Positions 16,041 through 32,218 of a stretch of DNA of 64,000 bases are shown one piece after another. Within the stretch, counting starts at the first letter, position 1. Each line of letters starts with the position of its first letter. The stretch spans positions 496,001-560,000 of the forward strand of contig NZ_JAFNIH010000019.1 in assembly GCF_019160155.1 (NCBI RefSeq). The letters are read 5' to 3'. The notes under the pieces are model-generated. The model worked only from the letters and a program-made list of their open reading frames with translations. It was not told where the DNA came from and searched no databases. This DNA comes from Pinisolibacter aquiterrae. GTDB lineage: Bacteria > Pseudomonadota > Alphaproteobacteria > Rhizobiales > Ancalomicrobiaceae. The translations under genes and the position numbers were made by a program.

Positions 16041-16050
16041 TGTCTAGACA
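16041..16050. promoter_or_regulatory. HutC-type operator upstream of hutC
   Basis: TGTCTAGACA, a perfect 10-base palindrome, lies 61 bases before the hutC start. It differs by one base from the site at 21253-21262 (TGTCTATACA). This suggests HutC autoregulation. Confidence 0.65.
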
Positions 16051-16110: not shown

Positions 16111-16848
16111 ATGCTGGACGACCTGGAGCCGCTCGACGGCCAAGGCCCGCTGTGGCAGCAGATCCGTCGCGCCCTGATCAAGCCGATCGCCGACGGCCGC
16201 TGGCCGCCCGACACCAAGATTCCCAAGGAGGTCGACCTGATCGAGCGCTGGGGCTCGGCGCGAATGACGGTGCATCGCGCGCTGCGCAGCCTCGCCGCCG
16301 AGGGGCTGGTGGTGCGGAAGCGCCGTTTCGGCACGGTGGTGGCGGCGCGCCCGCCGGAGCGCCCGGTGCTGGAGATCTGGGACATCGGCGCCGAGGTCGC
16401 CCGGTTCGGCGGGGTCTATTCCTTCGAGGTCCTGGCCCGCGCGCGGATCACCGCCGACGACCCGCGCGCCGCCCCGCTCGAGGCCGAGGACGGCACCGCG
16501 ATCGAATGGCTGATGGTCCGTCACTTCGCCGACGGCGAGCCGCTGCAGATCGAGGAGCGGGTGATCAGTCTCGCCGTCGCCCCCGAGGCCGCCGACGAGC
16601 CCTTCGACGAGGTCCCGCCCGGCACCTGGCTGGTCGCCCACGTGCCCTGGACCGACGCCGAACACGTCATCTCCGCCGAGGGCGCCTCGCCGGAGGTAGC
16701 CCGCCTGCTCGACATCGCCCCGGCGACCGCCTGTCTGGTGGTCGAGCGCCGCACCTGGGACCACGGCGCCCCCGTCACCCGCGCCCGCCTCGTCCACCCC
16801 GGCGACAAACGGCGCTTGGTCGGACGCTTTCATTCGGGCACGGACTGA
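16111..16848 (+). CDS. hutC: Histidine-utilisation repressor HutC (GntR/HutC family)
   Basis: A 245-residue repressor. The N-terminal GntR winged helix spans about residues 10-75 (PLWQQIRRALIKPIADGRWPPDTKIPKEVDLIERWGSARMTVHRALRSLAAEGLVVRKR) and the C-terminal UTRA effector domain, which in characterised HutC binds urocanate, covers residues 95-240. The family usually reads SEHELV where this protein has KEVDLI. It heads the histidine locus, and three matching TGT-N4-ACA-like sites lie at 16041, 21253 and 22776, so it probably represses the ABC transporter/Rieske operon, hutF and the hutIHGU operon. Confidence 0.88.
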   Translation: MLDDLEPLDGQGPLWQQIRRALIKPIADGRWPPDTKIPKEVDLIERWGSARMTVHRALRSLAAEGLVVRKRRFGTVVAARPPERPVLEIWDIGAEVARFGGVYSFEVLARARITADDPRAAPLEAEDGTAIEWLMVRHFADGEPLQIEERVISLAVAPEAADEPFDEVPPGTWLVAHVPWTDAEHVISAEGASPEVARLLDIAPATACLVVERRTWDHGAPVTRARLVHPGDKRRLVGRFHSGTD

Positions 16849-16880
16849 GGTCGCTGCAGCGGCACGGTGCCGTGCGGAGG

Positions 16881-17030
16881 TCCTTCATCCTGAGGTGCGA
16901 GCGACGCGAGCCTCGAAGGACGAAGGACCGAGAGGCAGGGCCGGTAACGGCTTCGCGCCTCGAAAGGACCGTACCTCCCGGCCCGTCGTGCTTCGAGGCT
17001 CGGCTTCGCCGGGCGCCTCGGCATGAAGCG
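16881..17030. repeat. Pair of inverted REP-like palindromic elements
   Basis: Two copies of a 40-45 base element lie in opposite orientation: copy A at 16881-16927 (TTCAT-CCTGAGGTGCGAGCG...GCCTCGAAGGACG) and copy B at 16986-17028, whose reverse complement reads TTCATGCCGAGG...GAGCCTCGAAGCACG. Such palindromes are frequent between genes in Hyphomicrobiales genomes. They occupy the space between the convergent hutC and Rieske genes and may terminate transcription from both sides. Confidence 0.7.
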
Positions 17031-17073
17031 CCTCCACCCGCGCCGAATGGGTCGGAACTTCGTACGGTGAGTC

Positions 17074-18126
17074 TCACTCCGCGGCGTCGGACCGCGTGCC
17101 TGCCGTCGCGGCCTTCTCCGCCGCGATCAGTTCGGCGAGCTTGCGCCGGAACCTGAGCGGGCCGGCGTCGAGCGGCAGGTTGATGTTGGGCGAATGCATC
17201 TCGTCCATGCCGATCTGCACCGCCTCCAGGATCACCTTGTCCTCGAGAAAGGCCGCCTTCACCGACGCCTCGAACATCGCGTCGACGGCGGTGTCGCCCG
17301 GCGCGAAATTGCGCATCTGGAACCAGAAATAGCGCGTCCGCTTCTCGTCGATCGGCGTCATGAAGTTGTAGCTGTCCATCAGGAACGCATCGTCGTGCAG
17401 CGGCTTGTCCGGCCCCCCGGTGCCGGCCGGCACGAAGATCGCCTTGATGATGGCATGGCTCGGATGGCGCACCTCGTAGTGCTGCTCGCGGTCGCAGAGG
17501 CCCGAGAACTTGGTGAAGGGCGCGTAGAACGGCGCGATCTCCACCCCGTACATCCAGCGCGAGGCGATCACCCCGTCCTCGGTCGGGCGGGCGCGCACCG
17601 GCACCTCCTCGCAGGCCTCGTTGCCGAAGGAGGTGACGTGGACCCAGGCGACGTGCGAGGGATCGAGCAGGTTGTCGGTGATGAAGCGATAGTCGCAGTC
17701 GACCTCCATCGACCCCGGCCGGGTGCAGCCCCATTCCGGGTCTTCCCAGGTCGGGACCGGGAAGATCGTCGCCGGATCGGCCTTGGCCGGATCGCCGGTC
17801 CACACCCAGGTCAGCCCCCAGCGATCCTCGACCGGATAGGCCCGGACATGGACGTTGCCGGCGAGATTGGGCGTCGCCGGCACCCGGATGCAGGCGCCGG
17901 AACAATCGAACTTGAGGCCGTGATAGCCGCATTCGATGGCGTCGCCGACCACCTTGCCCTTCGACAGCGGCAGCTTGCGATGCGGGCAGGCGTCCTCGAG
18001 CGCCACCGGCGACCCGTCTTCACGGCGGAACAGCACGACGTGACGGCCGAGCATGGTCACCCGGCGCGGGGCCCGGTCGATTTCGGAGGCGATGGCGGCG
18101 ACGTACCAAGCGTTCTCGAGAAACAT
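17074..18126 (-). CDS. Rieske non-heme iron oxygenase, alpha subunit (VanA/NdmA-like)
   Basis: A 350-residue ring-hydroxylating or demethylating oxygenase. The N-terminal Rieske domain has Cys47-Pro-His49 and Cys66-x2-His69 for the [2Fe-2S] cluster. The catalytic domain has the mononuclear iron motif DNLLDPSHVAWVH (Asp151, Asp155, His158, His163). Length and layout fit the VanA group, which includes vanillate O-demethylase and the caffeine N-demethylases. No reductase partner is encoded nearby. It is the last gene of a five-gene minus-strand run behind a HutC site with a histidine-type ABC transporter. A role on a methylated imidazole such as N-methylhistidine is an inference from that context alone. 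Confidence 0.88.
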   Translation of the reverse strand: MFLENAWYVAAIASEIDRAPRRVTMLGRHVVLFRREDGSPVALEDACPHRKLPLSKGKVVGDAIECGYHGLKFDCSGACIRVPATPNLAGNVHVRAYPVEDRWGLTWVWTGDPAKADPATIFPVPTWEDPEWGCTRPGSMEVDCDYRFITDNLLDPSHVAWVHVTSFGNEACEEVPVRARPTEDGVIASRWMYGVEIAPFYAPFTKFSGLCDREQHYEVRHPSHAIIKAIFVPAGTGGPDKPLHDDAFLMDSYNFMTPIDEKRTRYFWFQMRNFAPGDTAVDAMFEASVKAAFLEDKVILEAVQIGMDEMHSPNINLPLDAGPLRFRRKLAELIAAEKAATAGTRSDAAE

Positions 18127-18152
18127 CGGACCCTCCTTCGCGACGGTCGGGA

Positions 18153-18947
18153 TCACAAGAGTCCCGCCGCGCCCCGATCGAGATAGGTGTCGAGGAACTG
18201 ATCGATGCGCGGATGGCGCGGCTTGCCGAACACCTCGCCCGGCGTCCCCTCCACCAGGATCTTGCCCTGGTCGAGGAAGACGATCTTGTGGCCGACGGAA
18301 GCGGCGAAGCCGATCTCGTGGGTGACCACCACCATGGTCATGCCGCCCTCGGCGAGCTTGCGCATGACGTTGAGCACCTCGCCGGTCAGTTCCGGATCGA
18401 GCGAGGACGTCGGTTCGTCGAACAGCATGATCTTCGGCTCGAGCGCCAGGGCGCGGGCGATCGCCACGCGCTGCTGCTGGCCGCCGGAGAGCTCGGAGGG
18501 ATAGTGGGTCGCCCGTTCGGCGAGGCCGACCTCGGCGAGGCGCGCCCGCGCCCGCTCCTCGGCCTCCGCCTTCGACATCCCACGCGCCGTCACCAGCGCC
18601 TCCATGACATTGCCGAGCGCGGTCATGTGCGGCCACAGATTGAACTGCTGGAACACCATGCCGATCTTCGAGCGGACGCCGCGAATGTCGTTCGGCGGCA
18701 GCCGCATGCGGTCGCCGTCGGGGCCGAGGGCGAAGCCGAGCGGCGCCCCGTCGATCTCGATGAAGCCGTCGGTCGCCTCCTCCAGGAAGGCGATGCAGCG
18801 CAGCAACGTCGACTTGCCCGAGCCCGAGGGGCCGAGCAGGCAGGTGACCTCGCCGCGCGCCGCCTCGAGATCGATGCCGGTCAGAACCTCGGTCTTGCCG
18901 AAGCGCTTGACGAGACCCTGGACGCGAATGGCCGGTGCGTTGGTCAT
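18153..18947 (-). CDS. Polar amino-acid ABC transporter ATP-binding protein
   Basis: A 264-residue ATPase of the HisP/GlnQ type. Motifs: Walker A GPSGSGKST, Q-loop FQQFNLWPHMT, signature LSGGQQQR, Walker B IMLFDEPTSSLD and switch VTHE. It drives import by the two permeases encoded just upstream on this strand. The ATG at 18945-18947 overlaps the preceding permease stop by four bases, so longer upstream frames are not needed. The operon lies behind a HutC site and next to hut genes, so histidine, urocanate or a related imidazole is the likely cargo. Confidence 0.92.
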   Translation of the reverse strand: MTNAPAIRVQGLVKRFGKTEVLTGIDLEAARGEVTCLLGPSGSGKSTLLRCIAFLEEATDGFIEIDGAPLGFALGPDGDRMRLPPNDIRGVRSKIGMVFQQFNLWPHMTALGNVMEALVTARGMSKAEAEERARARLAEVGLAERATHYPSELSGGQQQRVAIARALALEPKIMLFDEPTSSLDPELTGEVLNVMRKLAEGGMTMVVVTHEIGFAASVGHKIVFLDQGKILVEGTPGEVFGKPRHPRIDQFLDTYLDRGAAGLL

Positions 18948-19612
18948 GAATGGCTGAACCGATATCTGGAGAAGCGGGCCTCGGCGAGGCGGCCGGCGCG
19001 GCCGCACAGATCGGTGAGGCCCCAGTAGAGGAGCGCGACGATGGTGAAGCTCTCCACGAAGGCATAATGCGCGGTGCCGATCGCCGAGACCTCGAGGGTC
19101 AGTTCCGGCACCGAGATGATCGAGAGGACCGCGGTCTCCTTCAGCATCAGGATGGTCATGTTGACCATCGCCGGCAACACCAGCATCGTCATCTCCGGCA
19201 GCACGATCCGGCGCAGCGTCTGCGCCCGGGTGAAGCCGGCGCAGTCGGCCGCCTCGAGATGGCCCTTGGGGATCGCCTCGAAGCCGGTGCGGAAGATCTC
19301 CGAATAATAGGCGGCGGCATAGACCGAGAGGCCGAACAGCCCGGCCGGGATGTTGTCGAGCGAGAGCCCGATGAACGGCCCGCCGTAATAGAGCAGGAAG
19401 ATCTGCACCAGGAACGGCGTGCCCCGGATCACCTCGACGAAGGCGCGCAGCAGCCAGCCGACCGGCGTCGGCCCCCAGCGCCGGGCGACGGCGATGGCGA
19501 AACCGCCGATCGAGCCGAACACCACCGCGCCGGCCCACACCCCGAGCGTCACGCCGAAGGCGCGCGCGATGTTGGGGACGTTCTCGAGGACGAGGGCGAA
19601 ATCGAAGGTCAT
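18944..19612 (-). CDS. Polar amino-acid ABC transporter permease
   Basis: A 222-residue inner-membrane permease of the HisQM family with about five transmembrane helices. The coupling EAA-loop is visible as AADCAGFTRAQTLRRIVLPEM, and the family's IRGTPFLVQIFLLYYG motif is intact. It forms a heterodimer with the permease encoded at 19609-20250, which it overlaps by four bases. Confidence 0.92.
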   Translation of the reverse strand: MTFDFALVLENVPNIARAFGVTLGVWAGAVVFGSIGGFAIAVARRWGPTPVGWLLRAFVEVIRGTPFLVQIFLLYYGGPFIGLSLDNIPAGLFGLSVYAAAYYSEIFRTGFEAIPKGHLEAADCAGFTRAQTLRRIVLPEMTMLVLPAMVNMTILMLKETAVLSIISVPELTLEVSAIGTAHYAFVESFTIVALLYWGLTDLCGRAGRLAEARFSRYRFSHS

Positions 19613-20250
19613 GCATGCCCCCGCGCGACGCGCCGCTCGAGCACGGTTCCGACTCCGGCGATCACCGCGTTGATGGCGAGATAGATCACCCCGGCCGAGG
19701 CGTAGAGCGGCAACGGCAGGAAGGTCGAGGCGGCGAGATCCTGGGTCATGCGGGTGAGTTCGATCACGCCGACCACCGACACCAGCGACGAGGCCTTGAG
19801 GATCATGATGATCTCGGAGACGAGCGACGGCAGCGTCAGCCGCACCGCGATCGGCAGGCGGATCCTCCGGAAGGTGGCGAAGGCGCCGAGCCCGCACATG
19901 TCGGCCGCTTCCATCAGCCCCTTCGGCACCGCGCCGAAGCCGCCGCGCAGAATCTCCGCCTGATAGGCGGCCGTGCACAGCGCCATGCCGGCGACCGCCG
20001 CCACCTCGCTCGGCACGTCGAGGCCGATCTGCGGCAAGAGGTGATAGATCAGGAGCAGCTGGACCAAGAGCGGCGTGCCGCGAAAGAAGCTGACGAAGAG
20101 CCGTCCGGCGCCGCGCGCCAGCGTGTTCGACGACATCGTCCCGGCGCACACCACCGTCGCCAGGAGGAAGCCGAGCACGATCGACACGACGGAGACGACG
20201 ATCGTCGTCACCGAGGCCTGGAGCAGCAGCAGGAAGAGATCCCAGGACAT
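19609..20250 (-). CDS. Polar amino-acid ABC transporter permease
   Basis: A 213-residue HisQM-family permease, partner of the one at 18944-19612. Motifs: FRGTPLLVQLLLIYHLLP and EAADMCGLGAFATFRRIRLPIAV (EAA loop). About five hydrophobic helices. It follows the solute receptor gene after 110 bases on the same strand. Confidence 0.92.
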   Translation of the reverse strand: MSWDLFLLLLQASVTTIVVSVVSIVLGFLLATVVCAGTMSSNTLARGAGRLFVSFFRGTPLLVQLLLIYHLLPQIGLDVPSEVAAVAGMALCTAAYQAEILRGGFGAVPKGLMEAADMCGLGAFATFRRIRLPIAVRLTLPSLVSEIIMILKASSLVSVVGVIELTRMTQDLAASTFLPLPLYASAGVIYLAINAVIAGVGTVLERRVARGHA

Positions 20251-20360
20251 GGCGGGGGTCGCGTCTCACCGGCCCGATGGCCGCGATGAACTCATGACGA
20301 GCGAGGCCGAGCCTCACGAGAGAAGACGCCCGGCGTCGCCGCCGGGCGCCGAACGAGCGA

Positions 20361-21197
20361 TCACAGCGCCGGGTCGGTGACTTCCGCCGGCGTGTCGAAG
20401 GTGGTGCCGAACCACTTCTCCTGGATCTTGGCCATGCGGCCGTCGGCCTTGATCTTGGCCATGGCCTCGGCCACCGCCTTGTTCAGGCTGGCGTAGGCGG
20501 CGTCCTTGCGCTCCGGGAAGCCGAAATAGGCCTTCACGCCGAAGGCGGGCTTGACCACTTCGAACACGCCCTTCCGCTGCGAGGCGAGGTAGGCGATGTT
20601 CGGCAGCGAGTTGGCGACGGCGACGACGCGGCCGGCAGCGAGATCGGCATAGGCCTCGTTGAAGGAGGGATATTCCTTCGCATCGACCGGCTTCGGCAGC
20701 GTCGCGCCGAACTTCTGGAGCTGGGCGAGCTGGGCCGTCGCCTTGCCGGAACCGACCGCCTTGCCGGCGATGTCCTCGGGCTTCATGATCGAGGTGTCGC
20801 CCGCCTTCTTCAGGAGCGCGACGGTCGCCTCGGCGATCGGCGGCGAGAAGGCGTAGCGCTCGAGGCGCGCCTTGGTGATGGTGGCGGGACCGGCGACGAT
20901 GTCGAACTTGCCGCTCTCGAGACCCGGCAGCACGCCGTCCCAGGGCAGCGCGATCCACTCGATCTTGACACCCATCTCCTTGCCGATCTCGGCGAAGAGG
21001 TCGACGTTGAGGCCGACGTGCTTGCCGGCGTCGATGAAGTCGAACGGCGCGAAGGCGGTCTCGGTGCCGACCTTGAGCACCCCGGCCTTCTTGACGTCGT
21101 CGAGGACGTCGGCCGCGGCGATACCGCCGGCGAGCGCCGAGACCGACACGGCGGCGCCGAGCGCCAGGGTCCAGTTGATGAGCGTACGCCTGTTCAT
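20361..21197 (-). CDS. Polar amino-acid ABC transporter substrate-binding protein
   Basis: The periplasmic receptor, 278 residues, SBP_bac_3 family. Signal peptide at residues 1-28 (MNRRTLINWTLALGAAVSVSALAGG, cleavage near IAAADV). The mature protein begins VLDDVKKAGVLKVGTETAFAPFDF, which is typical of the family, as is WDGVLPGLESGKFDIVAG. The ATG giving MNRRTL is chosen over an ATG 32 codons upstream because it starts the signal peptide. It heads the transporter/Rieske operon, with a HutC site 56 bases before its start. The ligand is probably histidine or a related imidazole compound. Confidence 0.92.
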   Translation of the reverse strand: MNRRTLINWTLALGAAVSVSALAGGIAAADVLDDVKKAGVLKVGTETAFAPFDFIDAGKHVGLNVDLFAEIGKEMGVKIEWIALPWDGVLPGLESGKFDIVAGPATITKARLERYAFSPPIAEATVALLKKAGDTSIMKPEDIAGKAVGSGKATAQLAQLQKFGATLPKPVDAKEYPSFNEAYADLAAGRVVAVANSLPNIAYLASQRKGVFEVVKPAFGVKAYFGFPERKDAAYASLNKAVAEAMAKIKADGRMAKIQEKWFGTTFDTPAEVTDPAL

Positions 21198-21252
21198 GGG
21201 AACGACTCTCCCTTCGGGGTTCGGTGTCCTGCGAGACGAGGCCGAGGGCCTT

Positions 21253-21262
21253 TGTCTATACA
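21253..21262. promoter_or_regulatory. HutC-type operator upstream of the ABC transporter/Rieske operon
   Basis: TGTCTATACA, which on the minus strand reads TGTATAGACA, the HutC-like consensus inferred from the three sites of this locus. It lies 56 bases before the receptor gene, in an AT-rich patch after hutF. Confidence 0.7.
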
Positions 21263-21369: not shown

Positions 21370-22737
21370 TCAACCCGCGATCTTGGCGAGCAGGGCGCGC
21401 CACCCGGCCTCGACCCGATCGCGCGCGACGTGACGCCCGTCGACCACCACCCGCCGCCCGCCGGCCCAGACCTCGCGCACCGGGTTTTCGGCGGTGGCGA
21501 AGATCCAGGCGTCGAGCAGCGCGTCGTCACCGCGACCGGCGAGCGCGACGTGATCGGGATCGAGCGCCACGAAATCGGCGCGCGCCCCCACCACCAGACC
21601 GCTCGCGGCCTCGCCCAGCGCCCGCGCGCCGCCCGCCACCGCCGCGTCGAACAGGCTCCGCCCGGTCGAGCGCGGCGGCCGCGCCATGCGGTTGCGCGCC
21701 CGGTCGCGCAGACGCTGCGACTGCTCGAGGAGACGTAATTCCTGCGGCAACGAGATCAGCACGTTGGAATCGCTGCCGACGCCCCAGGCCCCGCCGGCCG
21801 CGTCGTGGTCGACCGCCGGAAAGATCCCGTCGCCGAGATCCGCCTCGGTGATCGGACAGAGCCCGACCACCGCGCCCGAGGCCGCCATCGCCGCCACCTC
21901 GTTCGGCTCGACGTGAGTCGCGTGGATCAGGCACCAGTCGCGATCGACCGCGACCGTGTCGAAGAGATGCTCGACCGGCCGCCGCCCGGTCGCCACCAGA
22001 CAGTCCGCGACCTCGGCCACCTGTTCGGCGATGTGGACATGGATCGGCCCGCCGCGATGGCGCTCCGCGAGCGCCCTCAGTTCCACGTCGTTCACCGCGC
22101 GCAGCGAATGCGGCGCGATGCCGATCCGCCCGCCCTCGAGGGTCGCGACCGCCCGGCCCGCCGCCTCGTGCAGGCGCGCGTAACTCTCGAGATCGCAGAC
22201 GAAGCGCCGCTGCCCCTCGCCGGTCGGCCGATCGCCGAAACCGCCATGGGCATAGAACACCGGCAACAACGTCAACCCGATGCCGGTCGTCTCGGCCGCC
22301 CGCACCACCGCCGCCGACATCTCCGCCGGGTCGTCGTAAGAGCCGCCGTCGGGACGATGATGGACGTAATGAAACTCGGCGACGCCGGTGAACCCGCTCT
22401 CCAGCATCTCGACCTGGGCCAGCGCCGCCAGCACCGCGAGATCGTCCGGCGAGATCGTCCGCGCGAAACGGTACATCTCCTCCCGCCAGGTCCAGAAGTG
22501 ATCGTCCGCCCCGGCGCCGCGCCGCTCGGTCAGCCCGGCGAAACCGCGCTGGAAGGCGTGACTGTGGAGATTGCCGGTGCCGGGGACCACCGCGCCCGCG
22601 ATCCGCGTCGCCGGCGCCCGCCGCTCCGGCGCGGTCGAGGCGTCGACGGCGGTGATCCGCCCACGGTCCCACGCGACGAAGACGTCGCGGCGCCACCCCT
22701 CCGGCGTCAGCGCCAACTCCAACAGGGCCTCACCCAT
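21370..22737 (-). CDS. hutF: Formimidoylglutamate deiminase HutF
   Basis: A 455-residue amidohydrolase-superfamily enzyme that converts N-formimidoyl-L-glutamate to N-formyl-L-glutamate and ammonia, step four of the five-step histidine pathway. Metal ligands are seen in GNLHSHAFQRG (His58, His60), HVHIAEQ and LIHATHVEPNE, and the late aspartate in GSDSNVLIS. The HIAEQ and LCPITEADLGDGIFP stretches separate HutF from guanine deaminases. Its presence with hutG shows that this organism uses the deiminase/deformylase route. It is divergent from hutI, sharing a regulatory region with a HutC site. Confidence 0.94.
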   Translation of the reverse strand: MGEALLELALTPEGWRRDVFVAWDRGRITAVDASTAPERRAPATRIAGAVVPGTGNLHSHAFQRGFAGLTERRGAGADDHFWTWREEMYRFARTISPDDLAVLAALAQVEMLESGFTGVAEFHYVHHRPDGGSYDDPAEMSAAVVRAAETTGIGLTLLPVFYAHGGFGDRPTGEGQRRFVCDLESYARLHEAAGRAVATLEGGRIGIAPHSLRAVNDVELRALAERHRGGPIHVHIAEQVAEVADCLVATGRRPVEHLFDTVAVDRDWCLIHATHVEPNEVAAMAASGAVVGLCPITEADLGDGIFPAVDHDAAGGAWGVGSDSNVLISLPQELRLLEQSQRLRDRARNRMARPPRSTGRSLFDAAVAGGARALGEAASGLVVGARADFVALDPDHVALAGRGDDALLDAWIFATAENPVREVWAGGRRVVVDGRHVARDRVEAGWRALLAKIAG

Positions 22738-22775: not shown

Positions 22776-22785
22776 TGTATAGGCA
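22776..22785. promoter_or_regulatory. HutC-type operator between hutF and hutI
   Basis: TGTATAGGCA, one base away from TGTATAGACA (the reverse complement of the site at 21253). It lies 38 bases before hutF and 90 bases before hutI, so it could control both divergent units. Confidence 0.65.
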
Positions 22786-22875: not shown

Positions 22876-24084
22876 ATGACCGCGACGATCGACAGGCTCT
22901 GGACCCACGCCCGCCTCGCCACGATGGCGGCGGATCGCCCCGGCATCGGCCGGATCGACGACGGTGTAGTCGCCGCCCGCGACGGCCGCATCGTCTTCGC
23001 CGGCCCACGCGCCGATCTGCCCGCCGGGCTCACCGTCGCCGAGACGATCGATTGCGGCGGTCGCTGGATCACCCCCGGCCTGATCGACGCCCACACCCAT
23101 CTCGTCTTCGCCGGCAATCGCGCCGACGAATTCGAGGCGCGGCTCGCCGGCGCCACTTATGCCGAGATCGCCGCGAAGGGCGGCGGCATCGCCGCGACCG
23201 TCCGCGCCACCCGCGCCGCCACCGTGGACGACCTGATCGCCACCGCCCTGCCCCGTCTCGATCGCCTCCTCGCCGACGGCGTCACCACGGTCGAGATCAA
23301 ATCCGGCTACGGCCTCGACCTCGAATCCGAGGCGCGCATGCTGCGCGCCGCGCGCCGATTGGGAGAGATCCGCGACGTCCGCGTCGTCACCACCTTCCTC
23401 GGCGCCCATGCGCTGCCGCCCGAAACCACCGATCGCGACGCCCACATCGACCGCGTCGTGGCGATGATCGCGCCGCTCGCCGCCGAGGGCCTGATCGACG
23501 CCGTCGATGCCTTCTGTGAGGGCATCGCCTTCTCGCCCGCCCAAGTCGCCCGCGTCTTCGAGGCCGCCCGCACCCATGGGATCCGGGTCAAGCTCCACGC
23601 CGATCAGCTCTCCGACCTCGGCGCCGCCGCGCTCGCCGCCCGGTTCGACGCGCTCTCCGCCGATCATCTCGAATGGACCGACGAAGCCGGCGTCGCCGCC
23701 ATGGCCGCCTCCGGCACCGTCGCGATGCTGCTGCCCGGCGCCTTCTATTTCCTGCGCGAGACGCGCCGCCCGCCGATCGAGGCCTTCCGCCGCGCGGGCG
23801 TCGCCATGGCGGTCTCGACCGACTGCAATCCCGGCACCTCGCCGATGACCTCGCTGCTGCTCGCCATGAACATGGCCGCGACCTGTTTCTCGATGACCGT
23901 CGAGGAATGCCTCCTCGGCACCACCCGCCATGCCGCCCGCGCCCTCGGCCGCGAGGCCGAGATCGGCACGCTGGAGGCGGGCAAGGCCTGCGATCTGGCG
24001 ATCTGGTCGATCGAGACCCCCGCCGAACTCGTCCAGGGCCTCGGCGCCCTGCCCCTTCACGCCCGCATTCGGAGCGCTCGATGA
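22876..24084 (+). CDS. hutI: Imidazolonepropionase HutI
   Basis: A 402-residue metal-dependent amidohydrolase that opens the ring of 4-imidazolone-5-propionate to give formimidoylglutamate, step three of histidine breakdown. The N-terminal metal motif is [10 protein letters not shown] (His73, His75). Further family segments are [37 protein letters not shown] and the late metal Asp in [10 protein letters not shown]. It is first in the plus-strand operon hutI-H-G-U-CoA transferase-dehydrogenase and overlaps hutH by four bases. Confidence 0.96.
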
Positions 24085-25640
24085 CCGACCCCGTGATCCT
24101 CACCCCCGGCGCCGTCACGCTCGACCAGTGGGCGGCGATCGCCCGTGGCGCCCCCGCCCGTCTCGACCCGGCCGCCTTCCCGGCGATCGAGCGGGGCGCC
24201 GCCGCCGTCGCCGCGATCCTGGCCAAGGGCGCGCCGGTCTACGGCATCAACACCGGCTTCGGCAAACTGGCTTCCGTCCGCATCGACGACGCCGACCTCG
24301 CCAAGCTCCAGCACAATCTGGTGATCTCCCACGCCTCCGGCGTCGGCGAGCCGCTGGCGCCCGCGATCACCCGCCTGATGATGGCGCTGAAGCTCGCCAA
24401 TCTCGGCCAGGGCGCCTCGGGCGTACGCCCCGCCACCGCCCGCCTGCTCGAGGCGATGCTGATGAAGGGCGTGGTGCCGGTCGTGCCGGCTCAGGGCTCG
24501 GTCGGCGCGTCGGGCGATCTCGCGCCCCTCGCCCACATGACCGCCGCGATGATCGGCGTCGGCGAAGCGATCGTCGCCGGCGAGCGTCTGCCGGCGACGC
24601 AAGCCCTCGCCCGCGCCGGTCTGGCGCCGATCGAACTCGGCCCCAAGGAGGGCCTCGCCCTCCTCAACGGCACCCAGTTCTCGACCGCCAACGCCCTCTA
24701 CGCCCTCTTCACGGCGGAACGGCTGCTGCGCACCGGCCTCGTCGCCGGCGCGCTGACCACCGACGCCGCCAAGGGCTCCGACGGGCCCTTCGATCCGCGT
24801 ATCCACGCGCTGCGCCGGCACCCGGGCCAGATCGAGACGGCGGCGGCGCTGCGCGCCCTGATGGCGGGCTCGGCGATCCGCGCCAGCCACACCACCGGCG
24901 ACGACCGCATCCAGGACCCCTATTGCCTGCGCTGCCAGCCCCAGGTGATGGGCGCCGCCCTCGACATCCTGAGGAACGTCGCGGTGACCCTCGGCCGCGA
25001 GGCCGACGGCGTCACCGACAATCCGCTGATCTTCGTCGACCCGGAAGGCGACGCCCACGAGGCGATCTCCGGCGGCAATTTCCACGCCGAGCCGGTCGCC
25101 TTCGCCGCCGACATCGTCGCGTTGGCGCTGTGCGAGATCGGCTCGCTCGCCGAGCGCCGCATCTCGCTCCTGGTCGACCCGGTCTTGTCGCGGTTGCCGG
25201 CCTTCCTCACCCCGCGCCCCGGCCTCAACTCCGGCTTCATGATCCCGCAGGTGACCGCCGCCGCGCTGGTCTCGGAGAACAAGCAGCAGGCCCATCCGGC
25301 CAGCGTCGATTCGATCCCGACCTCGGCCAATCAGGAAGACCACGTCTCCATGGCCGCCCACGGCGCCTACCGGCTCCACCGCATGGCCCGCAACGTCGCC
25401 AACGTCCTGGCGATCGAACTCCTCGCCGCCGCGCAGGGCTGCGACTTCCACGGGCCCCTCGCCTCGTCGGAGGCGCTCGAGCGCGTCCGGGCCGCGATCC
25501 GCGCGCGCGTGCCCGCCCTCGACGACGATCGCTTCTTCGCCCCCGACATCGCATGCGTCGCCGACATGGTGCTCGCCGGCGCCTTCGAGGAGGCCGTCGC
25601 CCCGCTCGCCCTCCCTCGCGTCACGGAGGCCGCCCGATGA
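24081..25640 (+). CDS. hutH: Histidine ammonia-lyase HutH
   Basis: A 519-residue enzyme that deaminates L-histidine to trans-urocanate, the first step of the pathway. The catalytic MIO cofactor arises from Ala143-Ser144-Gly145 in [15 protein letters not shown]. Other conserved stretches are [11 protein letters not shown], the active-site Tyr/Asn region [12 protein letters not shown], and [14 protein letters not shown]. The ATG overlaps the hutI stop (ATGA). Length matches the family. Confidence 0.96.
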
Positions 25641-26461
25641 ACACCCGTCCCGATTGGCTGGTCGTCGAGGAACGCGACGCGCCGTTGATCCTGAGCTTCC
25701 CCCACACCGGCACCGGCCTGCCCGGCGAGTATGAGAGCCGCTTCCGCTCGCCCTGGCTCGCCCGCCGCGACGCCGATTGGCACGTCGAGGCGCTCTATGC
25801 CTTCGCCGCCGGCCTCGGCGCGAGTTTCGTGCGCACCACCGTCTCGCGCTCGGTGATCGACCCGAACCGCGATCCCTCCGGCGTCTCGCTCTATCCCGGA
25901 CAGGCGACGACCGGCCTCTGCCCGACCGAAACCTTCGACGGCGAACCGCTCTACCGCGACGGCGAAGACCCCGGCGCCGACGAGATCGCCGCCCGCCGCA
26001 CGGCCCATTTCGAGCCCTATCACGACGCCCTCGCCGGCCAGATCGCACGCCTGCGGGCGATCCACCCGAAGGTCGTCGTCTACGACTGCCATTCGATCCG
26101 CTCGCGCATCCCGCGTCTCTTCGAGGGCGACCTGCCGCAGTTCAACATCGGCACCAACGCCGGCAGGTCCTGCGACCCGGCGTTGACCGCCGCGATCGAG
26201 GGCCCCTGCGCCGCCTCGGGTCTCGGCCATGTGGTCGACGGCCGCTTCAAGGGGGGCTGGATCACGAGGCACTACGGCCGTCCCGAGACGGGCGTCCACG
26301 CGATCCAGATGGAACTCGCCATGCGCGGCTACCTGCGCGAACCCGCGACGATCGACGCGAGCAACTGGCCCGTCGCCTTCGACCCCTCCTTCGCCGCCCC
26401 CGTCACCACCGTTCTCACCCGCGCCCTCGAGGGCGCGCTCCGCTTCGCCCTGACCGCCTGA
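25637..26461 (+). CDS. hutG: N-formylglutamate deformylase HutG
   Basis: A 274-residue zinc hydrolase that splits N-formyl-L-glutamate into glutamate and formate, the last step of the HutF route. The family pattern is visible as [34 protein letters not shown] and [18 protein letters not shown]. This is the deformylase HutG, not the arginase-like formiminoglutamase of the same name. It overlaps hutH by four bases. Confidence 0.93.
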
Positions 26462-26472
26462 GGCCACGCCCC

Positions 26473-28140
26473 ATGACCCGCATCGACAACGACCGCATCG
26501 TCCGCGCCCCGACCGGCTCCGACATCTCCACCCAGTCGTGGCTGACCGAAGCCGCCATGCGCATGTTGATGAACAATCTCGACCCCGACGTCGCCGAGCG
26601 CCCGTCGGAACTGGTCGTCTACGGCGGCATCGGCCGCGCCGCCCGCGATTGGGAGAGCTTCGACAAGATCGTCGCCACCCTGAAGCGGCTGAAGGACGAC
26701 GAGACCCTGCTGGTCCAGTCCGGCAAGCCGGTCGGCGTCTTCCGCACCCATGCCGACGCCCCGCGCGTGCTCATCGCCAATTCCAACCTCGTCCCCCATT
26801 GGGCGACCTGGGACAAGTTCCACGAGCTCGATCGCAAGGGCCTGATGATGTACGGCCAGATGACCGCCGGGTCGTGGATCTACATCGGCGCCCAGGGCAT
26901 CGTGCAGGGGACCTACGAGACCTTCGTGGAGGCCGGCCGCCGTCACTTCGGCGGTTCGACCAAGGGCAAGTGGATCCTGACCGGCGGCCTCGGCGGCATG
27001 GGCGGCGCCCAACCGCTCGCCGCCACCATGGCCGGCTATTCCTGCATCGCCGTCGAGTGCCAGCCGAGCCGGATCGATTTCCGCCTGCGCACCGGCTATG
27101 TCGACGTCAAGGCCGACACCATCGACGAGGCGATGGCGCTGCTCGAGACGTCGTTGAAAGAGGGCAAGCCGACCTCGATCGCGCTGCTCGGCAACACCGC
27201 CGAGATCCTGCCCGAGATGCGCCGTCGCGGCATCCGCCCCGATCTCGTCACCGACCAGACCTCGGCGCATGATCCGATCAACGGCTATCTCCCCGCCGGC
27301 TGGAGCCTCGACACTTGGTTCGACAGGCGCGAGCGCGATCCGAAGGCGGTCGAGAAGGCCGCCCGCGCCTCGATGGCGGTCCATGTCCAGGCCATGCTCG
27401 ACTGGTGGCACGAGGGCGTGCCGACCGTCGACTACGGCAACAACATCCGCCAGATGGCCTTCGAGGAGGGCGTCACCGACGCCTTCGACTTCCCCGGCTT
27501 CGTGCCGGCCTATATCCGCCCGCTGTTCTGCCGTGGCGTCGGCCCGTTCCGCTGGGCGGCGCTCTCCGGCGACCCCGAGGACATCTACAAGACCGACCAG
27601 AAGGTGAAGGAGCTGATCCCCAACGATCCCCACCTCCACAACTGGCTCGACATGGCGCGCGAGCGCATCCGCTTCCAGGGCCTGCCCGCCCGCATCTGCT
27701 GGGTCGGCCTCGGCGATCGCCATCGTCTCGGCCTCGCCTTCAATGAAATGGTCGCCAAGGGCGAATTGAAGGCGCCGATCGTCATCGGCCGCGATCACCT
27801 CGACAGCGGTTCGGTCGCCTCGCCCAACCGCGAGACCGAGGCGATGATGGACGGGTCGGATGCCGTCTCCGACTGGCCGCTCCTCAACGCGCTCTTGAAC
27901 TGCGCCTCGGGCGCCACCTGGGTCTCGCTCCATCACGGCGGCGGCGTCGGCATGGGCTTCTCCCAGCACGCCGGCATGGTCATCGTCGCCGACGGGACGG
28001 AAGCGGCGGCGAAGCGTCTCGGCCGCGTGCTGTGGAACGACCCGGCCACCGGCGTCATGCGCCACGCCGACGCCGGCTACGAGATCGCCCGCGACTGGGC
28101 GAAGGAAAAGGGCCTCGACCTGCCGGGCATCCTCGGATGA
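26473..28140 (+). CDS. hutU: Urocanate hydratase HutU
   Basis: A 555-residue NAD-dependent hydratase that converts urocanate to 4-imidazolone-5-propionate, step two. Highly conserved blocks are visible: [31 protein letters not shown], the active-site cysteine region [14 protein letters not shown] and [19 protein letters not shown]. Length equals the family norm. It follows hutG by 11 bases, and its stop overlaps the CoA-transferase start (ATGA). Confidence 0.96.
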
Positions 28141-29321
28141 GCGAGACGACGCCCCTCCTCGGCGGACGTCCGCTCGACGGCGTCCGTGTCCTCGACTTCA
28201 CCCGCGTCCTGTCGGGGCCCTACGCCACCTCGCTCCTCGCCGATCTCGGCGCGGAGGTGATCAAGGTCGAGAGCCCCGGCGGCGACGACTATCGCCACGT
28301 CGGCCCGTTCCACGCCGACGGCTCCTCGGCGATCTTCGAGGCGGTCAACCGCGGCAAACGCGGCCTCGTCCTCGATCTCGCCCGTCCCGACCATCGCGCG
28401 ATCGCCCGCGATCTCGCCGTCGGCGCCGACGTGGTGGTGGAGAACTTCCGCCCCGGCGTCGCCGACAAGCTCGGCATCGGCTGGGCGGACCTCTCCCTCC
28501 TCCAGCCGCGTCTGATCCATGCCTCGATCTCCGGCTTCGGCCAGGAGGGGTCGGACGCCCGCCGCCCCGCCTACGACATCGTCGTCCAGGCGATGAGCGG
28601 GCTGATGCACGTCACCGGCGACCCCGAGGGGCCGCCGACGCTGGTCGGCGAATCGATCGCCGACGTCGTCTCCGGCCTCTTCGCCGCGCTCGGCATCGTC
28701 GCCGCTCTCGCCGAACGCGACCGCACCGGGCGCGGCCGCCGGATCGACGTCTCCATGTTCGATTCGCTGATGGCGCTGCAGCCGCTCGTCGTCGCGCGTT
28801 GCCTCGCCACCGGCATCGCGCCGATGCGGGTCGGCAATCGCCACCCCCTCTCCGCCCCCTTTGGCGCCTATGCGGCGAAGGACGGGAGCTTCGTGGTCGC
28901 GGTGCTGAACGAGAAGCTCTTCGCCGCCCTCTGCGCGGTGATGGACCGGCCCGACTGCGCCGCCGATCCGCGCTTCGCGACCGACCCCGACCGTCTCGCG
29001 AACGAGCCGCTCCTGCGCGTCGCGATCGAGGATTGGGCCGACGATTTGAGCGCCGCCGAGGCGGTCGCCCGGCTCGTCGCCGCCGGAGTTCCCGCCGCCG
29101 AGGTCGCCGACACCGCCACCGCGCTCGACGGCGCCGAGGCGCGCGGCCGCCCGATCACTCAGACCGTCGCCCATCCGAGCCTCGGCTCCCTCACCGTGCC
29201 GGAACAGCCGATCCGTTTCTCCGGCGCCCCGCGCGGGGTCTCCGCCCCCGCCCCCCGCCTCGGCGAGCACGGCGCCGCCGTCCTCGAAGACCCCTTCCGC
29301 GCCTGGAGCCCCCGCCGATGA
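28137..29321 (+). CDS. CaiB/BaiF (family III) CoA-transferase embedded in the hut operon
   Basis: A 394-residue family III CoA-transferase. These enzymes move CoA between carboxylic acids through an aspartyl-CoA anhydride. The expected catalytic Asp is in [14 protein letters not shown], and the N-terminal block [27 protein letters not shown] is typical. The substrate is not known from sequence. It is coupled by four-base overlaps to hutU before it and an acyl-CoA dehydrogenase after it, so it should be made together with the histidine enzymes. An imidazole acid such as imidazolepropionate is an inferred substrate; succinyl-CoA:dicarboxylate exchange is an alternative. Confidence 0.9.
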
Positions 29322-30445
29322 GCCGCGCCCATGCCGATGCCGAGATCCTCGCCGGCGTCGAGACCTTCGCCCGCGAGGTGCTCGCCCCCAAGGCCGCCGA
29401 GATCGACGAGACCGCCGTCTTCGCCGGCCTCCATCTCCCCGCCCTCGCCGAGATGGGGCTGATGGGCCTCAACCTGCCGGCCGAGCACGGCGGCCTCGGC
29501 GTCGACGCCTGGACCCTGTTCGAGGCGATCGCCGCCGTCGCCGGCGCCTGCGGCTCCACCGCCTCGATGGTCACCGCCCATTGGCTGGCGACCGATTCGA
29601 TCCTCCACGGCGGCTCGCCGGAGCAGAAGGCGGCGTGGCTGCCGCGCGCCGCTTCCGGCGAGATCCTCGGCGCCTTCGGCCTGACCGAACCCGGCGCCGG
29701 TTCGAACCCCGCCGACATGACCACCCGCGCCATCCGCGAGGGCGACGGCTGGCGCCTGCGCGGCACCAAGCACTTCATCTCCAATGCCGGCGCCGCCGAC
29801 TTCATCGTCGTCTACGCCAAGACCGATCCGGCCGCCGGCGCGCGCGGCATCTCCGCCTTCCTGGTCGAACCGTCGCGGGGCGGCGTGATCATCGGTGGGC
29901 CGGAGCGCACCATGGGCCTCAAGGGCGGTCACGTCTTCGAGGTGGTGCTCGACTGTTTCGTCCCCGACGACCGGCGCCTCGGTCCGGAGGGCTCCGGCTT
30001 CCGCACCGCCCTGAAGACCCTCGACGCCGGCCGGCTCGACATCGCCGCCTGCGCGATCGGCGTCGCCGAGGCCGCCTTCGCCGCCGCCAAGGCCTGGGCC
30101 GGAACCCGCATCGTCGACGGCCATCCGATCGCCGAATTCCAGGGCCTCCAGTGGATGATCGCCGACATGGCGGTCGACCTCGCCGCCGCGCGCGGCCTCG
30201 CCGATGCCGCCACCGGCAAACGCGCCGCCGGCGCGCGCTATTCGACCGAGGCCGCCATGGCCAAGCTCCATGCCTCGGAAATGGCCGGACGCGTCACCGA
30301 CGCCGCCCTCCAGATCCACGGCGGCTACGGCTACACCCGCGACTTTCCCCTGGAGCGCTGGGTCCGCGACGTCCGCATCCTGCGCATCTACGAGGGCTCC
30401 TCGGAGGTCCAGCGCAACATCGTCGCCCGCTTGGTGCTGGGCTGA
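29318..30445 (+). CDS. Acyl-CoA dehydrogenase embedded in the hut operon
   Basis: A 375-residue FAD-dependent acyl-CoA dehydrogenase that introduces an alpha-beta double bond into an acyl-CoA. Conserved blocks: FGLTEPGAGSNPADM, FISNAG, QIHGGYGYTRDFPLER and RIYEGSSEVQRNIVARLVL, in which the Glu of YEGS is the expected catalytic base of short-chain members. It overlaps the CoA-transferase by four bases. With that gene it could turn a saturated acid into its 2-enoyl form, which for imidazolepropionate would be urocanate. No electron-transfer flavoprotein is encoded nearby. Confidence 0.92.
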   Translation: MSRAHADAEILAGVETFAREVLAPKAAEIDETAVFAGLHLPALAEMGLMGLNLPAEHGGLGVDAWTLFEAIAAVAGACGSTASMVTAHWLATDSILHGGSPEQKAAWLPRAASGEILGAFGLTEPGAGSNPADMTTRAIREGDGWRLRGTKHFISNAGAADFIVVYAKTDPAAGARGISAFLVEPSRGGVIIGGPERTMGLKGGHVFEVVLDCFVPDDRRLGPEGSGFRTALKTLDAGRLDIAACAIGVAEAAFAAAKAWAGTRIVDGHPIAEFQGLQWMIADMAVDLAAARGLADAATGKRAAGARYSTEAAMAKLHASEMAGRVTDAALQIHGGYGYTRDFPLERWVRDVRILRIYEGSSEVQRNIVARLVLG

Positions 30446-31156: not shown

Positions 31157-32218
31157 TCAGACCGCCGGCTTCGCCCCGATCGAGGGCGAAAAGACCATCA
31201 GCGACAGGATCTCGAACAGAACCTGCGCCGCCGCATGGGCGGTGTTGGTGGTGGCGTCGTATTGCGGCGCCACTTCCACCACGTCGCCGCCGACGAGGTT
31301 CAGCCCCTTCAGCCCGCGCAGGAACTCGAGCACCTCGCGTGTCGTCAGCCCGCCGACCTCCGGCGTGCCGGTGCCGGGCGCGAACACCGCGTCGAGACAG
31401 TCGACGTCGAAGGAGACGTAGACCGGCGCGTCGCCGACCACGTCCCGCGCCTTCTCGATCAGCGCGGGGATGCCGAGCGCCGGCACCTCCTCGGCGTGAA
31501 CCACGGTCATGCCGCTGTCGTAGGAGAACTCCCAGATGTATTCGGACGCGCCGCGAATACCGATCTGGATGGTCTTGCTCGGATCGACCACGCCCTCGAG
31601 CACCGCCTCGCGGAACGGCCCGCCGTGATGGAACTTGGAGAAGTCGAAGGGACCGCCGGTGTCGCAATGAGCGTCGAGATGGATCAGCGCTACCGGCCGA
31701 TCCTTGCCGAGCGCCTTGAGGATCGGCAGGCTCACCGAATGGTCGCCGCCGACGCCGAGCGGCACCACCCCGGCCGCCACCATCCGGGCGACATAGGCCT
31801 CGATGTCCTGGTGGCACATCTCGAGGCTGTAGCGCGACCGGAAGACGATGTCGCCGACGTCGGCGACGCGCAGGTCCTTGGTCGGCATGCACTTCAGAAA
31901 ATGCTCGTAGGGCCCGATCCGCTCGATCGTGCGCACCGCGCGGGGTCCGAACCGGGCGCCCGGCCGATTGGTGACCCCGAGATCCATCGGCACCCCGTAG
32001 AGCGCCACCTGGAGATCGCCGAAGTCGGGCGCGACCTGATCGATCGGCCGATGCGGCGCGGCGAGGAAGGTCGGCACGCCGATATAGGGCGCGGCCCGGG
32101 TGCCGTCGGGATCGATGAAGGCGGCGGCGATGCGGGCCCGTTCGGGATCGTGAATGACGCCGCCCGAGGCGTCTCCGTATTTGGCGCGCAGGCGGGCGAG
32201 TTCATCGGCATCGAACAT
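31157..32218 (-). CDS. Ureohydrolase (agmatinase / guanidino-acid hydrolase family)
   Basis: A 353-residue arginase-superfamily hydrolase that releases urea from a guanidino compound. The metal motifs are complete: GVGGDHSVSLP, LIHLDAHCDTG and SFDVDCLDAVFAPGTGTPE. The sequence looks like the long agmatinase-annotated group of Rhizobiales. Agmatine, guanidinobutyrate or another guanidine is possible, and specificity cannot be read here. The ATG giving MFDADELARL is chosen with GGAG upstream; an ATG 16 codons earlier is less likely. The hypA gene lies divergently. Because nickel-dependent guanidine hydrolases are encoded beside HypA-like proteins, that activity is a minor alternative. Confidence 0.87.
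   Translation of the reverse strand: MFDADELARLRAKYGDASGGVIHDPERARIAAAFIDPDGTRAAPYIGVPTFLAAPHRPIDQVAPDFGDLQVALYGVPMDLGVTNRPGARFGPRAVRTIERIGPYEHFLKCMPTKDLRVADVGDIVFRSRYSLEMCHQDIEAYVARMVAAGVVPLGVGGDHSVSLPILKALGKDRPVALIHLDAHCDTGGPFDFSKFHHGGPFREAVLEGVVDPSKTIQIGIRGASEYIWEFSYDSGMTVVHAEEVPALGIPALIEKARDVVGDAPVYVSFDVDCLDAVFAPGTGTPEVGGLTTREVLEFLRGLKGLNLVGGDVVEVAPQYDATTNTAHAAAQVLFEILSLMVFSPSIGAKPAV

Follow-up and report, generated by a model that had tools for sequence, protein, structure and literature searches.

In the 64,000-nucleotide stretch of Pinisolibacter aquiterrae contig NZ_JAFNIH010000019.1 analysed here (positions 496,001 to 560,000, referred to as the window), a gene for a Rieske non-haem iron oxygenase (RO) lies within a complete histidine-catabolism (hut) locus. 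The RO gene (17074–18126, minus strand; 350 aa, ATG start) is the final gene of a minus-strand operon placed between hutC and hutF, in the order receptor–permease–permease–ATPase–RO. The other four products form an ATP-binding cassette (ABC) transporter: a family-3 periplasmic receptor (SBP_bac_3; 20361–21197, minus strand, 278 aa), for which no NCBIfam receptor model reaches its cut-off and to which no ligand is assigned, two permeases (19609–20250, 213 aa, and 18944–19612, 222 aa, both on the minus strand) and an ATPase of the polar amino acid type (18156–18947, minus strand, 264 aa). The two permease genes overlap by 4 bp, as do the second permease gene and the ATPase gene, and RO follows the ATPase gene after 29 bp. 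This same-strand order confirms the first-pass annotation, which had described the oxygenase as the last gene of a run starting with a polar amino-acid receptor. On one side lies the HutC repressor gene (GntR/UTRA; 16111–16848, plus strand; TIGR02018, 270 bits against a cut-off of 220). On the other are the genes for the formimidoylglutamate deiminase HutF (21370–22737, minus strand; TIGR02022 above cut-off) and a plus-strand run (22876–28140) encoding the imidazolonepropionase HutI (22876–24084; TIGR01224 above cut-off), the histidine ammonia-lyase HutH (24081–25640; assigned by homology to hut loci), the N-formylglutamate deformylase HutG of the COG3741 type (25637–26461) and the urocanate hydratase HutU (26473–28140).

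RO matches the Pfam domains Rieske (7e-23) and VanA_C (2e-44) and retains all the Rieske ligands (C47/H49/C66/H69, in a CxH...CxxH motif) and iron ligands (H158/H163/D296, two His and one Asp), which identifies it as a VanA_C-branch Rieske oxygenase, the type predicted in the first pass. Its AlphaFold2 model (mean pLDDT 93.4) is closest among PDB folds to dicamba monooxygenase (TM 0.88), followed by guaiacol O-demethylase (0.87).

Two HutC-like operators were identified in the window. One, TGTCTATACA (21253–21262), lies upstream of the receptor gene, 55 bp from its start codon, and coincides with the end coordinate given in the first-pass annotation; the other, TGTCTAGACA (16041–16050), precedes hutC. 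A degenerate HutC-like site with one mismatch, TGTATAGGCA (22776–22785), was read from the sequence between hutF and hutI. The pattern TGTNTANACA has two matches in the window (21253 and 16041) and none in 100 shuffles, and TGTMTAKACA has three matches across the genome (4.9 Mb): before the ABC–RO operon, before hutC and at an unrelated position (C58:83108), near a primase gene and without hut context, which was taken as a chance match. The window operators are close variants of the footprinted Pseudomonas HutC consensus, TGTA-N2-TACA (PMC12977541). A HutC-type operator upstream of the receptor gene is kept in three relatives (L001, L005 and L007). In Hoeflea alexandrii, the ABC–RO operon lies far from the hut genes and has no hut neighbours, and the sole perfect TTGTMTAKACAA in 5.5 Mb sits 82 bp before its receptor gene; among the remaining Hoeflea, L007 carries such a site, L008 carries one with a mismatch, and none was found in L006. 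In Polaromonas (L055/L167), HutC-like sites are present at hutC (one mismatch), at the SoxB/receptor promoter and at a creatininase-like gene (one mismatch). Judged from these sequence patterns, the assignment of RO to the HutC (histidine) regulon is well supported. The known HutC regulon resembles the window in comprising the HutC repressor, hut enzymes and ABC importers such as HisXYZ, and the text of a survey of 113 genomes with HutC mentions no oxygenase (PMC5343134).

A scan of genome contigs yielded 80 RO relatives. Defining the subfamily by at least 45% identity to the window RO and counting loci of at least 9 kb (n=79), 15 loci contain HutH and 17, the window included, contain a hut catabolic gene; Microvirga massiliensis is also hut-linked once its locus is extended. 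To avoid the bias of the contig scan, 385 genomes were sampled evenly across the class. The subfamily is present in seven of them, all of which encode HutH (97 of the 385 do so overall), and in six the RO–HutH distance is 6.0, 1.1, 1.2, 2.5, 12.3 and 2.7 kb, the two genes lying on different contigs in the seventh. With the P. aquiterrae genome left out, HutH is found in 6/6 RO-bearing genomes and linked to RO in 5/6; a Fisher test on presence gives p = 2e-4, and a uniform-position model puts the linkage at about 4e-11. The arrangement varies among hut-embedded members: RO starts 4 bp after the hutU stop codon in L176, directly follows hutU in L178, lies between hutF and hutH in L055, L062 and L070, and adjoins hutC in the group of the window. 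On plasmids of Paracoccus yeei and Mameliella alba, it is accompanied by HutC, HutI/HutF or HutU/G/H, a dipeptide ABC transporter, an aminotransferase, an FAD-linked oxidase and a reductase. Hut-linked members occupy about seven separate places on the tree, and the hut label changes at least 10 times. The class-wide draw and the repeated embedding in hut operons thus rule out a chance neighbourhood, and the association of RO with hut is far above chance. Together with the operator and the HutC match, this bears out the placement in a histidine regulon behind a HutC-type site that had been proposed in the first pass.

In a quickly built tree, the subfamily forms a supported clade (SH-aLRT 99) that excludes the VanA/VanB-type pairs, dicamba monooxygenase, the guaiacol enzyme and HpxD. 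Because the outgroup branches are long, only this separateness is claimed and the exact sister is left open. As VanA references, the tree includes VanA/VanB-type pairs (L139, L082) rather than assayed enzymes. Clustering with lignin O-demethylases, which the first-pass annotation had named as counter-evidence to its proposal, is not seen. At the positions aligned to the dicamba pocket, Y201, Y217, S252 and Q270 are present in 100% and N254 in 97% of the subfamily, and these residues are the same in hut-linked and unlinked members, a constancy that suggests a single substrate class.

Among enzymes of known function, dicamba monooxygenase DdmC (PDB 3gb4, 3gke) shares the fold and the Rieske and iron ligands of RO and demethylates by monooxygenation, but the two are only 30% identical and RO sits in a histidine regulon. 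The dicamba contact residues of DdmC, which we take to be N230, H251 and W285, are not matched in RO, where they align with I227, N254 and S288 (the alignment is gapped around W285), and S267 is replaced by Q270. The W285 gate of that enzyme is named in PMC13288931. The oxygenase of guaiacol O-demethylase (PDB 7qwt), itself a demethylase of the same fold, has 29% identity to RO and a different pocket. VanA, which acts with VanB, has in common with RO the VanA_C domain, a similar size and the need for a reductase; the VanA/VanB-type pairs, in contrast, are 36–37% identical to RO, belong to a separate clade and have W, I, V and F in place of Y201, Y217, S252 and Q270, and the window has no VanB-type reductase. 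RO neither groups with VanA-type sequences nor shares their pocket, and is unlikely to be a vanillate O-demethylase. The kinship to caffeine (NdmA) and betaine-type (Stc2/GbcA/CntA) Rieske enzymes suggested in the first pass proved distant compared with that to DdmC and guaiacol demethylase, the nearest structures. NdmA and NdmB are Rieske oxygenases that take an N-methyl group off an N-heterocycle, but their identity to RO is 21–23%, their TM score reaches at most 0.77 and the sequence match covers only the N-terminal half. CntA matches RO with 46 bits in the Rieske part only, and Stc2 was not among the matches listed. HpxD, annotated as a Rieske purine hydroxylase acting on an N-heteroaromatic, is likewise a distant relative, differing in identity (29%), locus and its VanB-family partner.

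The 64-kb window shows no reductase gene, in agreement with the earlier expectation that a shared reductase would be needed; elsewhere in the genome, one candidate lies by a VanA-like oxygenase (contig C33) and one by another Rieske gene. Across the 79 loci, a ferredoxin-type reductase is adjacent in 25 and a LysR regulator in 30, many such members being non-embedded, and most hut-embedded ROs have no adjacent reductase. Zn hydrolases recur as partners, of the DUF2817 type in 17 loci and also of the AstE/AspA type. On plasmids of Shinella, Mesorhizobium and Rhizobium, DUF2817 and the ATPase of the importer form one fused protein; fusions with an amino-acid-type ABC ATPase were located at L123:11446–13410, L132:11283–13253 and L134:10181–12148, adjoining RO and other importer genes. 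A plasmid from a Pseudomonas fragi meat isolate carries LysR, a HisQ-type importer, DUF2817, RO and a reductase. Further partners include a HisC-like aminotransferase, a GlcD-like oxidase (FAD-linked 2-hydroxyacid dehydrogenase), dipeptide ABC transporters, PhyH, sarcosine-oxidase subunits and a creatininase-like protein. In the window, hutU overlaps by 4 bp a gene for a family III CoA transferase (28137–29321, plus strand), which in turn overlaps by 4 bp an acyl-CoA dehydrogenase gene (29318–30445, plus strand). This pair, which recurs beside hut and RO (L166, L175) and beside RO (L133), is a candidate imidazolepropionate-to-urocanate route.

Given that RO is found inside hut and under HutC, its simplest role would be to convert a compound that is no substrate of HutH into histidine or an intermediate of Hut, and it very probably acts on some histidine derivative. 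Where their function is known, VanA-type oxygenases mostly act on aromatic acids, by demethylation or hydroxylation. The closest folds, dicamba monooxygenase and guaiacol demethylase, point to a demethylase, and the DUF2817 or AstE/AspA hydrolases, the DUF2817–ATPase fusion, the dipeptide ABC transporters and the sarcosine-oxidase complexes suggest a methylated or conjugated amino acid as the substrate. Among compounds that HutH does not accept, ring-N-methylhistidine is the common natural one, present in muscle proteins, anserine and balenine, and the latter two would need an amide hydrolase like those seen. The best-fitting interpretation is that RO is an N-demethylase of ring-methylated histidine, to which we assign a probability of about 0.5. 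The methylhistidine or methylated urocanate suggested in the first pass remains a plausible candidate substrate. The RO operon would be derepressed together with the hut genes through HutC, and its ABC system would import histidine and probably also N-methylated or conjugated forms. With electrons from a reductase encoded elsewhere in the genome (by the next gene in many relatives), RO would hydroxylate the methyl group that pi- or tau-methylhistidine carries on an imidazole nitrogen. The hydroxylated product would shed formaldehyde, and the freed histidine would pass through HutH, HutU, HutI, HutF and HutG. Tentatively, this may be extended to a widespread accessory branch of histidine catabolism, in which a hut-regulated Rieske N-demethylase feeds ring-methylated histidine from conjugates such as anserine into Hut, with a hydrolase tied or fused to the importer and with side entries for imidazolelactate and imidazolepropionate. 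These side entries, through the oxidase and aminotransferase for imidazolelactate and the CoA transferase and acyl-CoA dehydrogenase for imidazolepropionate, would explain the other partners. If pi-methylhistidine went through Hut unchanged, it would emerge as the secondary amine N-methylglutamate, which would fit the sarcosine-oxidase partners.

Several observations weigh against ring demethylation. Neither the residues nor the partner genes prove that the substrate carries an N-methyl group, and the ABC system may do no more than import histidine. For ring demethylation, one branch would not need its sarcosine-oxidase, creatininase-like and HD-protein partners, and the presence of CoA transferase, acyl-CoA dehydrogenase, aminotransferase and hydroxyacid dehydrogenase partners suggests that such loci also process histidine relatives that are not methylated. 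In addition, the 10 RO genomes of the same order all encode HutH, but RO lies elsewhere in five of them (G003, G009, G049, G050 and G052).

One alternative is an oxygenase that hydroxylates or desaturates a histidine relative whose ring bears no methyl group, such as imidazolepropionate, imidazolelactate or a thio- or oxo-imidazole, its product entering Hut at urocanate or histidine. The recurrence of a CoA transferase with an acyl-CoA dehydrogenase, adjacent to hutU in the window and L166 and at another place in the cluster in L175, together with that of the aminotransferase and the hydroxyacid dehydrogenase, suggests side entries into the pathway, and the distant family member HpxD is annotated as a purine hydroxylase. 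The same enzymes, however, would do the job without any oxygenase, and the closest structures are demethylases, so that we regard this alternative as rather unlikely. An alpha-N-methylated substrate (hercynine or N-alpha-methylhistidines), from which RO would take one methyl group and sarcosine-oxidase-like complexes the rest, would account for the SoxA/SoxB genes that neighbour RO in one branch and have a promoter with a HutC-like site in L055, and for the second GbcA-like Rieske gene and the HAL-like lyase beside RO in L039 and its kin L044 and L049. Betaine-type Rieske enzymes nevertheless form another branch, as the CntA and Stc2 comparisons indicate, and no close Sox homologue was found in the hut locus of the window, which makes such a substrate distinctly improbable.

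Creatinine or another N-methyl-imidazolone is a still weaker candidate. Creatininase-family and sarcosine-oxidase neighbours occur in a Comamonadaceae/Rhodobacteraceae branch, and the hut linkage would then reflect co-use of animal nitrogen waste, but the creatininase-like protein is far under the creatininase cut-off (87 against 235 bits), such genes are missing from most loci, and both the hutF–hutH embedding and the HutC control would be left unexplained. That RO is an aromatic, vanillate-like O-demethylase lying beside hut by accident is hardly credible: the VanA_C family and the O-demethylases among the closest structures speak for it, but the independent hut linkage is repeated and accompanied by HutC control, the clade is separate, the pocket is different, and the genome already has a VanA/VanB-like pair on contig C33. 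A lignin-type O-demethylase identity was rejected on clade and pocket.

Animal muscle metabolism yields methylhistidines and anserine as major end products, and these serve as markers of diet and muscle breakdown. Our literature search, the coverage of which was incomplete, with subscription journals mostly outside it, found no Rieske oxygenase in hut, no bacterial methylhistidine demethylase and no named bacterial genes for ring-methyl removal from methylhistidine. The subfamily, of which no earlier description was found, would give a familiar enzyme family a role in a pathway that is new to it. If RO is indeed a ring N-demethylase, the classic histidine pathway would gain a step, an N-demethylase for the imidazole ring would be supplied, and one gene family would mark bacteria able to use methylhistidines or anserine. 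Even with another histidine relative as the substrate, an oxygenase of the Rieske type that hut operons have recruited again and again would be a new pathway element.

Other features were observed around RO and its relatives. The intergenic region between hutC and RO (16849–17073) contains an inverted-repeat-like sequence, noted by eye only. Near the hut locus of the window lies a gene for an agmatinase-family ureohydrolase (31196–32086, minus strand; above the TIGR01230 cut-off), a relative of which adjoins RO in Hoeflea. In Polaromonas (L167, 8997–18791), sarcosine-oxidase-like, creatininase-like, HD- and CMD-labelled genes adjoin the hut operon, and two promoters there carry HutC-like sites. 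The gammaproteobacterial loci L039, L044 and L049 also encode, beside RO, a large TonB-receptor-like protein, so labelled by reading and not by family search. Finally, a related oxygenase group (37–42% identity; L137, L138) is found beside a 6-hydroxynicotinate reductase and molybdopterin enzymes, possibly as part of an N-heteroaromatic acid pathway.

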